From positions 1-43,921 of the forward strand of contig JAAXWO010000016.1 in NCBI GenBank assembly GCA_013334965.1: a DNA stretch of 43,921 nt, in the 5' to 3' direction. The position numbers were made by a program, and so were the translations under genes. The notes beneath the pieces are model-generated. The model saw only the letters and a list, made by a program, of their open reading frames with translations. It was not told the DNA's origin and did no database searches. This stretch comes from Chlorobiaceae bacterium. Lineage in GTDB: Bacteria; Bacteroidota; Chlorobiia; Chlorobiales; Chlorobiaceae. Positions 41,925 to 43,921 of the stretch are shown piece by piece. The stretch's first letter is position 1. Every line of letters starts with the position of its first letter.

Positions 41925-41974
41925 CTCCATTGACAACCAACACAAAAAACCCGATCGCTCACGAGAGGTCAGAG

Positions 41975-41995
41975 TTAACAGCCGAATGCTGCTCT
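41975..41995 (-). repeat. tRNA-Asn anticodon-arm scrap
   Basis: The minus strand AGAGCAGCATTCGGCTGTTAA is the D-stem end and anticodon arm of a tRNA-Asn (anticodon GTT), with no remaining T-arm or acceptor. It lies just past the stop of the first GIY-YIG gene, where the other GIY-YIG genes abut full 68-bp repeats. Confidence 0.6.
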
Positions 41996-42003
41996 ATCCT
42001 GAT

Positions 42004-42279
42004 TCAAATCGAAAGTTCACCGGCAATCAATCTCGCAATCATTTTGCGGCTCTTCCAGTTCTTGACTTTAGATTCAGCTGCATGGGCATCGGTTTTGGAG
42101 GCATACTGCCTGAACCAGACCAGACACCAAGGACGGCAGCGGGAAGTGAACCCCTTTTCAAAAGTATTGTGATAGGCCAAACGACGCTCCGGACCGGAGG
42201 ATATGCCGACATAATATCGATCGGCACTTTCCGAATGCAGGATGTAGAGACTGTAACGTTCTTGATTATCCGCGACCAT
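42004..42279 (-). CDS. GIY-YIG nuclease, copy 1
   Basis: 91 residues from ATG 42279 (MVADNQERYSLYILHSES). The GIY-YIG core is YSLYILHS...RYYVGISS, followed by the conserved Arg/His region (ERRLAYHN) and the ending AAESKVKNWKSRKMIARLI typical of small stand-alone (UPF0213-like) members. These are putative single-strand or structure-specific nucleases; role unknown. It is the most diverged of the three copies. A longer frame would start inside the terminator at 42326-42358. Confidence 0.82.
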   Translation of the reverse strand: MVADNQERYSLYILHSESADRYYVGISSGPERRLAYHNTFEKGFTSRCRPWCLVWFRQYASKTDAHAAESKVKNWKSRKMIARLIAGELSI

Positions 42280-42325
42280 GGTTTTAGGGGAACCGGTTTG
42301 CGGGGGCAGTTGACTATAAATAAAA

Positions 42326-42358
42326 AAAGGAAGCACCGCTTACTCAAGTACTTCCTTT
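42326..42358 (-). terminator. Terminator between tRNA-repeat array and GIY-YIG copy 1
   Basis: AAAGGAAG / CTTCCTTT stem with a 17-base loop that can fold further. The minus strand ends in seven T, so a transcript through the repeat array would stop before the nuclease gene. Confidence 0.75.
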
Positions 42359-42363
42359 CTTAT

Positions 42364-42895
42364 GGCTCCGTGAGCAGTATTCGAGCCTACATCCCGACAC
42401 GTCAGGATAACAGCCGAATTCTCTCTCTCTTGGCTCCGCGAGTAGGATTCGAACCTGCATCCCGACACGTCGGGATAACAGCCGAATGCTCTCTCTCTTG
42501 GCTCCGTGAGCAGGATTCGAACCTACATCCCGACACGTCGGGATAACAGCCGAATTCTCTCTCTCTTGGCTCCGCGAGTAGGATTCGAACCTGCATCCCG
42601 ACACGTCGGGATAACAGCCGAATGCTCTCTCTCTTGGCTCCGCGAGTAGGATTCGAACCTGCATCCCGACACGTCGGGATAACAGCCGAATGCTCTCTCT
42701 TGGCTCCGCGAGTAGGATTCGAACCTACATCCCGACACGTCGGGATAACAGCCGAATTCTCTCTCTCTTGGCTCCGCGAGCAGGATTCGAACCTACATCC
42801 CGACACGTCGGGATAACAGCCGAATTCTCTCTCTCTTGGCTCCGCGAGCAGGATTCGAACCTACATCCCGACACGTCGGGATAACAACCGAATGC
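42364..42895 (-). repeat. Array of eight 68-bp tRNA-Asn-derived repeats
   Basis: Units begin at 42364, 42432, 42500, 42568, 42636, 42702, 42770 and 42838 (spacing 68, once 66). Each, read on the minus strand, has AGAGC, the anticodon-arm start CATTCGGCTGTTAT, a hairpin ATCCCGAC-GT-GTCGGGAT in place of the rest of that arm, an intact T-arm GTAGGTTCGAATCCTAC, and the acceptor 3' strand TCGCGGAGCCA with encoded CCA. The 5' acceptor strand and most of the D-arm are missing, so no unit is a full tRNA. Frames reading GSNPTRGAK through it are not genes. Confidence 0.92.
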
Positions 42896-42903
42896 TTCAG
42901 GAC

Positions 42904-43179
42904 TTATATCGTGAGATCACCAGCTATCAATCGCTCGATCATCTTCCTGCTTTTCCAGCTTTTGACTTTAGTTTCAGCTGCATGGTCATCAGCTTTCGAG
43001 GGATACTCCTTCACAAAAACCTGCGACCATGGCCGATAACGGGAGGTAAAGCCTTTTTCGATCGTGTTGTGAAAATGCCGACGACGCTCCGGATCGGAGG
43101 ATATGCCGACATAATATCGATCGGCACTTTCCGAATGCAGGATGTAGAGGCTGTAACGTTCTTGATTATCCGCGACCAT
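42904..43179 (-). CDS. GIY-YIG nuclease, copy 2
   Basis: 91 residues, same family and start as copy 1 (MVADNQERYSLYILHSES, RYYVGISSDPERRRHFHN). It differs from copy 3 at only a few bases (e.g. KADDHAAE against KADAHAAE). It abuts the 68-bp repeat array on its 3' side and a terminator on its 5' side. With the two repeats that follow it forms a block of about 494 bases that is duplicated. Confidence 0.82.
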   Translation of the reverse strand: MVADNQERYSLYILHSESADRYYVGISSDPERRRHFHNTIEKGFTSRYRPWSQVFVKEYPSKADDHAAETKVKSWKSRKMIERLIAGDLTI

Positions 43180-43225
43180 GGTTTTAGGGGAACCGGTTTG
43201 CGGGGGCAGTTGACTATAAATAAAA

Positions 43226-43258
43226 AAAGGAAGCACCGCTTACTCAAGTACTTCCTTT
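43226..43258 (-). terminator. Terminator before GIY-YIG copy 2
   Basis: Identical to the hairpin at 42326-42358. Confidence 0.75.
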
Positions 43259-43263
43259 CTTAT

Positions 43264-43389
43264 GGATCCGTGAGCAGTATTCGAGCCTGCATCCCGACAC
43301 GTCGGGATAACAGCCGAATTCTCTCTCTCTTGGCTCCGCGAGTAGGATTCGAACCTACATCCCGACACGTCGGGATAACAGCCGAATGC
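43264..43389 (-). repeat. Array of two tRNA-Asn-derived repeats
   Basis: Units begin at 43264 (variant GGATCCG) and 43332. They have the same structure as the 42364 array, and the end abuts the stop of GIY-YIG copy 3. Confidence 0.9.
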
Positions 43390-43397
43390 TTCAGGAC

Positions 43398-43673
43398 TTA
43401 TATCGTGAGATCACCAGCTATCAATCGCTCGATCATCTTCCTGCTTTTCCAGCTTTTGACTTTAGTTTCAGCTGCATGGGCATCAGCTTTCGAGGGATAC
43501 TCCTTCACAAAAACCTGCGACCATGGCCGATAACGGGAGGTAAAGCCTTTTTCGATCGTGTTGTGAAAATGCCGACGACGCTCCGGATCGGAGGATATGC
43601 CGACATAATATCGATCGGCACTTTCCGAATGCAGGATGTAGAGGCTGTAACGTTCTTGATTATCCGCGACCAT
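43398..43673 (-). CDS. GIY-YIG nuclease, copy 3
   Basis: 91 residues, almost identical to copy 2, shifted by 494 bases. The near-identity includes flanking terminator and repeats, so the whole block was duplicated recently. Family features as for copy 1. Confidence 0.82.
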   Translation of the reverse strand: MVADNQERYSLYILHSESADRYYVGISSDPERRRHFHNTIEKGFTSRYRPWSQVFVKEYPSKADAHAAETKVKSWKSRKMIERLIAGDLTI

Positions 43674-43719
43674 GGTTTTAGGGGAACCGGTTTGCGGGGG
43701 CAGTTGACTATAAATAAAA

Positions 43720-43752
43720 AAAGGAAGCACCGCTTACTCAAGTACTTCCTTT
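43720..43752 (-). terminator. Terminator before GIY-YIG copy 3
   Basis: Same hairpin as at 42326-42358 and 43226-43258. Confidence 0.75.
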
Positions 43753-43757
43753 CTTAT

Positions 43758-43921
43758 GGATCCGTGAGCAGTATTCGAGCCTACATCCCGACACGTCGGG
43801 ATAACAGCCGAATGCTCTCTCTCTTGGCTCCGCGAGTAGGATTCGAACCTGCATCCCGACACGTCGGGATAACAGCCGAATGCTCTCTCTCTTGGCTCCG
43901 CGAGTAGGATTCGAACCTACA
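43758..43921 (-). repeat. tRNA-Asn-derived repeat array running out of the window
   Basis: Units begin at 43758 (GGATCCG variant), 43826 and 43894; the last is cut by the window end. A complete tRNA-Asn gene, if it is the parent, would lie beyond 43921. Confidence 0.9.

Follow-up and report, generated by a model that had tools for sequence, protein, structure and literature searches.

The question raised by this locus is what kind of genetic element, if any, would cause a small nuclease gene to alternate with broken copies of a tRNA gene, and whether such a pairing is accidental. The window (the whole stretch of DNA analysed, 43,921 nucleotides) represents the terminal 43.9 kb of contig C14 in a genome of 2.48 Mb and 20 contigs, the closest named relatives of which belong to the Chlorobiaceae. 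The array of tRNA-Asn 3' fragments interleaved with three GIY-YIG genes that had been described in a first-pass annotation is real and located where it had been placed, with all units and GIY-YIG genes of the window read on the minus strand. Its features, in window coordinates, are the following:

41972-41995, minus strand: degenerate tRNA-Asn remnant AGAGCAGCATTCGGCTGTTAACTC behind GIY gene 1, at the distal end of the element stack
42004-42279, minus strand: GIY-YIG nuclease gene 1 (open reading frame to 42336), a mosaic 82% identical to gene 3
42317-42362, minus strand: terminator hairpin and T run (GGAAGTACTTGAGTAAGCGGTGCTTCC TTTTTTT) in the interval between unit and GIY gene 1
42363-42896, minus strand: array A, eight partial tRNA-Asn units (starts 42363, 42431, 42499, 42567, 42635, 42701, 42769, 42837)
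42459-42476, no strand assigned: palindrome ATCCCGAC-AC-GTCGGGAT within a unit, recurring at 42527, 42595, 42663, 42729, 42797, 42865, 43291, 43359, 43785 and 43853
42904-43179, minus strand: GIY-YIG nuclease gene 2 (open reading frame to 43236; PF01541, E 6e-11)
43217-43262, minus strand: same terminator as at GIY gene 1, ahead of GIY gene 2
43263-43390, minus strand: array B, two partial tRNA-Asn units (starts 43263, 43331)
43398-43673, minus strand: GIY-YIG nuclease gene 3 (PF01541, E 1.3e-12; family alignment)
43711-43756, minus strand: same terminator as at GIY gene 1, ahead of GIY gene 3
43757-43921, minus strand: array C, full units at 43757 and 43825 and a unit at 43893 cut by the contig end, continuing on C17:1-181

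The three blocks of units, separated by the three nuclease genes, contain 12 full units and one partial of 29 nt (TRF score 936). The earlier count of at least 13 copies of a 68-bp unit therefore stands for 12 full copies, of which most measure 68 bp and one 66 bp, and two units adjacent to GIY genes carry a different linker. The same terminator is present 5' of all three nuclease genes, as had been claimed, whereas an array immediately 3' of each nuclease gene, as also claimed, is found for two of them, GIY1 (42004-42336) being followed by the remnant 41972-41995 only. ARAGORN and Rfam called no tRNA in the window, as is expected for broken copies. Between 42344 and 42884 the arrays yield long spurious open reading frames on both strands (e.g. 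'VRILLAEPRERE...'), which are likely to be annotated as hypothetical proteins.

The assembly break falls within the array, with C14 ending and C17 starting inside it, and the parental gene that had been expected beyond the contig end was recovered there: C17:1-181 contains two more full units and one partial, abutting an intact parental tRNA-Asn(GTT) at C17:256-182. Considering that units extend on C17 up to the intact tRNA and continue on C14, the order in the direction of transcription is tRNA-Asn, units, a contig gap, units, terminator, GIY3, two units, terminator, GIY2, eight units, terminator, GIY1 and the degenerate tRNA remnant. An assembly artefact was rejected because the same layout is found in the single-contig genomes G001, G002, G316, G190, G270 and G233. 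Contigs of many relatives also stop at the tRNA-Asn element locus.

Each unit corresponds to tRNA-Asn positions 21-75 including CCA, in which positions 37-46 are replaced by the palindrome TCCCGACGTGTCGGGA. The description of the units as lacking the 5' half of the tRNA was correct in that positions 1-20 are missing, but the D arm keeps its 3' side, and the 5' strand of the anticodon arm and the loop to A37 are also retained. Similarly, the hairpin that had been reported for every unit is TCCCGACGTGTCGGGA in most of them, with ATCCTGAC in one unit and GGTTGTTAT in another. The C17 unit adjoining the intact tRNA represents an intermediate form, with GGGTTG as in the parental gene and a palindrome with one end base altered. 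The 18-mer palindrome pattern occurs 14 times genome-wide, 13 of these in this array, as compared to 0 occurrences of a reversed control.

The three open reading frames match PF01541 with E values of 6e-11 to 1e-12 (47.3, 42.9 and 48.3 bits against the Pfam cut-off of 22.6). For gene 3, the longest reading frame (43398-43730) starts from GTG, and the ATG at 43673 gives a protein of 91 aa which fits the family, whose element nucleases are single-domain proteins of about 85-110 aa. Three near-identical genes had been reported: genes 2 and 3 are indeed about 99% identical, with one amino-acid-changing difference, but gene 1 is a mosaic, in which about 240 nt at the module start are 95-100% identical to the other two and the remainder about 62-82%. 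The dN/dS ratio is about 0.16 between genes 1 and 3 and about 0.1-0.3 among intact GIY genes where computable, and the intact genes are thus under purifying selection. An alignment of 30 GIY sequences contains invariant Y, G, R, H-N and E columns, the conserved Tyr, Arg and Glu of which we take to be the catalytic positions of the GIY-YIG domain. The predicted fold of the window protein is a plain GIY-YIG domain (pLDDT 89), for which the nearest solved folds are Slx1 and UPF0213, and these are also the nearest proteins by sequence (UPF0213, E 7e-11; Slx1, E 2.5e-7). NCBIfam holds no model for these proteins, and PHROGs gave a weak endonuclease match for one relative.

The association of nuclease and repeat was then evaluated in 86 genomes of the same family as the window genome, where every strong GIY homologue with enough flanking sequence is located directly behind tRNA-Asn, whether palindrome units are present or absent. 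The first-pass idea that nuclease and tRNA-like repeat form one propagating element thus survives the refuting condition that had been set for it. The tRNA-Asn locus is found occupied in some relatives and empty in others, with yceD-rpmF and leuA flanking the tRNA in both cases alike, and the identical neighbours therefore indicate that the tRNA-Asn is at its ancestral place and that the element comes and goes. Decay is frequent: the GIY reading frame is absent or broken in many relatives, with stops or frameshifts in L093, L099, L102, L108 and L111, units lacking a detected GIY gene in L094 and L103, and neither units nor GIY gene in L098. At L091, L096, L103 and L108, copies of the 5' side (positions 1 to about 58, with the same palindrome) are present upstream of tRNA-Asn; such copies are tandemly repeated in some genomes, no GIY gene separates them from the intact tRNA, and they constitute a second form of the element, possibly a non-autonomous one.

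A scan of named genomes retrieved 47 relatives, almost exclusively in Chlorobi, Ignavibacteria, Melioribacteraceae and other Bacteroidota; 35 of the 47 have a tRNA gene within 500 nt, nearly always tRNA-Asn, and most of the others are near contig ends. At the level of the phylum, a relative is present in 177 of 296 genomes at E <= 1e-4, frequently as tandem GIY arrays, which also occur in single-contig genomes. From these, 80 loci were picked by protein score alone, half of them low-ranked, and at 71 of the 80 a tRNA gene of the same strand is no more than 500 nt away, as compared to a chance proximity of about 2% (estimated from about 45 tRNA genes per 2.5-4.5 Mb). The tRNAs concerned belong to 10 isotypes (Asn, Asp, Ser, Arg, Pro, Val, Ala, Gly, Met and Phe), and this recurrence at other tRNAs argues that the nuclease-tRNA pairing is not accidental. 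UPF0213-like genes of the same bacterial family are unlike the element genes in being located away from tRNAs (0 of 10 loci beside one) and in grouping apart, with full support, in a rapidly built tree with few columns; the element proteins fall outside that clade. Intact tRNA genes are tandemly multiplied beside GIY genes at L223 and L246 (Pro-Arg pairs; Asp and Gly), much like the multiplication brought about by SegB in phages.

The flanks of these loci are informative as to the origin of the repeats. At L148, L152, L165, L175, L184 and L188 a species-specific terminator is doubled, being present once after the tRNA and once after the fragment beyond the GIY gene, and therefore the flanking direct repeat consists of host DNA (the 3' part of the tRNA plus terminator), as would be expected from recombination at the tRNA and not from ends carried by an element. 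The order is reversed at L162, L164 and L168 (broken 5' copy, GIY gene, intact tRNA).

Because the nuclease tree of the 80 phylum loci is based on few columns and contains many weak forks, reliance was placed on counts of changes rather than on single branches. The tRNA isotype requires 25 changes on this tree, as compared to a mean of 49 (lowest 44) when shuffled and 44 (lowest 37) when shuffled inside host families, and host family requires 36, i.e. more than isotype. After thinning to one row per family and isotype, 22 changes remain against 29 when shuffled (lowest 25). The nuclease tree, with its isotype-specific clades, tracks tRNA isotype better than host family, and part of the isotype signal may reflect descent.

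The neighbouring tRNA has partial copies at 105 of 118 loci, and a palindrome is contained in 170 of 216 such copies, being undetectable in the other 46. Palindrome density is 11.4 per kb in the tRNA copies and 0.49 per kb at the same loci away from the element, a 23-fold difference. What the palindrome replaces is either one strand or an entire arm (D, anticodon or T), and its position is characteristic of isotype and clade. In Asn copies it begins after +3 from the anticodon and the tRNA resumes at +14 (25 loci, 22 different palindromes); in Asp copies it occupies +15 to +24 (9 loci, 9 palindromes, 5 host families), which destroys the T arm itself; in Met copies +3 to +14 (3 host families); and in Val and Arg copies -6 to +8. 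Most palindromes start with TCC and finish with GGA. Among 29 distinct Asn-site inserts, gathered without requiring symmetry, 20 have at least 5 perfect outer pairs, some of them with changes on both sides (TC/GA, TT/AA). Because a mere defect needs no symmetry, the palindrome is either used or kept by DNA-level correction of near-palindromes.

The same 18-mer is also found solo elsewhere in Chlorobiaceae, often central in larger palindromes, and solo copies at L134, L137, L142 and other loci are centred in palindromes with unrelated outer arms. In G010 (C31:45785-46863, L136), a Y1 (RAYT-like) transposase gene has a solo ATCCCGACNNGTCGGGAT palindrome on either side. Solo palindromes were considered as markers of further GIY loci, but the 20 that were checked had neither GIY gene nor tRNA. 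Outside the locus, the pattern TCCCGA-N(2-8)-TCGGGA has a median of 19 occurrences in 19 element-bearing Chlorobiaceae and of 2 in 46 others (P 8e-9, phylogeny uncorrected). No Y1 transposase gene was found in or beside an element, the unit carrying no other gene at the element loci, and the Y1 genes of the window genome (G000) are on contigs other than that of the element.

Taken together, the nuclease-repeat association is strongly upheld, and is far wider than first proposed. As to what the locus is, we favour, with a rough probability of 0.58, stacked copies of a small chromosomal element that consists of a single-domain GIY-YIG gene and part of the adjacent tRNA gene and that most likely behaves like SegB, as a free-standing homing element of tRNA genes; in the gene family as a whole, a GIY-YIG gene with palindrome-broken tRNA copies probably represents a home-seeking selfish element of Bacteroidota/Chlorobi chromosomes. 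The nuclease would break DNA related to tRNA-Asn, the break would be repaired by recombination of the tRNA gene with its partial copies, with one intact tRNA retained, and the same recombination would copy the nuclease gene and multiply the repeats in tandem. The palindrome, at its fixed position, would stop the partial copies from being tRNAs, and could be either a disarmed target site or a structure recognised by the nuclease. Cleavage, its site, homing or mobility, and break-driven amplification are what we infer from the arrangement of these loci. The occurrence of occupied and empty versions of one tRNA-Asn locus among relatives is as expected of a free-standing homing endonuclease, and the isotype-specific nuclease clades and fixed palindrome positions would suit an enzyme with a defined target. 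The intact neighbouring tRNA keeps the presumed target, and therefore self-cutting must somehow be avoided; free-standing GIY-YIG enzymes usually cut their donor allele poorly (PMC13096335). Counting against homing are the nearest folds (UPF0213/Slx1), the lack of a separate DNA-binding domain, unlike known homing endonucleases, and the distribution of relatives, none of which turned up on viral contigs or in phages and only distant Sinorhizobium ones on the plasmids searched, so that no vehicle between cells is apparent.

The palindrome could itself be the substrate, because the nearest solved folds include Slx1, which structure entry titles describe as acting on branched DNA. A structure-specific Slx1/UPF0213-like nuclease would then cut extruded hairpins during replication, by which the unit would be multiplied or mobilised. 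This reading, which we regard as unlikely but as deserving serious consideration, accounts for the nearest relatives by sequence and fold, and for perfect pairing that stays while the sequence drifts at a fixed place (20/29 Asn inserts), although template-switch correction of near-palindromes can also keep palindromes perfect, and 46/216 copies have none that is detectable. Also doubtful, and a little more so, is a hitherto unknown class of bacterial mobile element in which a single-domain, Slx1-like GIY-YIG nuclease recognises the palindrome within a broken tRNA copy as an isotype-positioned mobility site and has also seeded the related palindromes elsewhere. The dispersed copies may instead reflect ordinary REP/RAYT biology, because two of them flank the Y1 gene in G010; in an extended form that we consider improbable, all palindromes are REP-type repeats moved by Y1 (RAYT) transposases and tolerated by broken tRNAs, the nuclease being unrelated. 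The solo 18-mers inside larger palindromes and the correlation of Y1 with palindrome counts (rho 0.47) agree with this, but it does not predict the 23-fold enrichment in tRNA copies or the same nucleotide position across host families, and the excess of dispersed palindromes with the element persists among genomes with at least 2 Y1 transposases (P about 1e-5, phylogeny uncorrected).

Passive tandem duplication, in which slippage and RecA recombination multiply tRNA pieces beside a GIY gene that is incidental or serves the host, is rather improbable: nuclease-free expansion of tandem repeats does occur, and L094 and L103 have arrays in which no GIY gene was detected, but pairing at about 10 isotypes with isotype-specific nuclease clades would be unexpected, and frequent decay of the GIY gene disfavours a host role. 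Transcription of the repeats as tRNA-fragment RNAs, regulatory or acting as decoys (e.g. against anticodon nucleases), would be in keeping with units that are downstream of the tRNA promoter, retain T arm, acceptor strand and CCA, and fold as RNA modestly better than shuffles (z -1.7); we hold it to be very improbable, given that the T arm is destroyed in the Asp type and that copies may be either 5' or 3' of the gene. Duplication of the 3' end of a tRNA gene is typical of integrase-type islands, and the copies resemble such duplications, yet the earlier suggestion of abandoned att sites stacked at tRNA-Asn has proved weak and has hardly any likelihood left: only GIY-YIG reading frames and no integrase are found between or beside the copies, the unit measures no more than about 68-494 bp, the duplication runs on through the host terminator, there are 5'-side copies ahead of the tRNA as well (L091, L096, L103, L108), and the copies hold a maintained palindrome.

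SegB, a GIY-YIG homing enzyme encoded beside phage tRNAs of many isotypes, drives segmental tandem amplification (PMC13096335). With SegB and the T-even free-standing GIY-YIG genes the present elements share a GIY-YIG gene beside tRNAs, tandem amplification of tRNA DNA and many isotypes (PMC13096335). They differ in being located on bacterial chromosomes across a phylum, in the small single-domain protein, in isotype-specific clades and in partial tRNA copies broken by a palindrome, while cutting is here presumptive. The likeness is one of layout and outcome, by analogy with which membership of the homing endonucleases is proposed. UPF0213/Slx1-type proteins are the nearest to the element nuclease by sequence and fold. 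REP/BIME systems with RAYT (Y1) have in common short palindromes whose arms are also dispersed in these genomes, whereas here the mobiliser would be GIY-YIG or none, and the palindrome position is fixed in tRNA copies. With tRNA-targeting integrative elements, a duplicated 3' part of the tRNA and one retained intact tRNA are shared, but here an integrase is lacking, partial copies of the 5' as well as the 3' side occur, the palindrome is internal and only a nuclease gene is carried. The literature searched, from which most subscription journals and all preprints were outside scope, contains no description of this element family, only SegB and organelle introns. A categorically new element is a live possibility, should the palindrome prove to be the nuclease substrate.

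In these genomes the element accounts for many spurious short open reading frames as well as for orphan 'GIY-YIG nuclease family' genes. If the favoured reading is true, these loci would constitute an undescribed family of tiny nuclease elements on essential tRNA genes throughout the phylum, each line being tied to one tRNA, and a bacterial counterpart to the phage SegB. Target-specific single-domain GIY-YIG nucleases would be available as a natural collection, and the amplification of tRNA genes, like the assembly breaks at tRNA loci, would have a cause that is open to testing.
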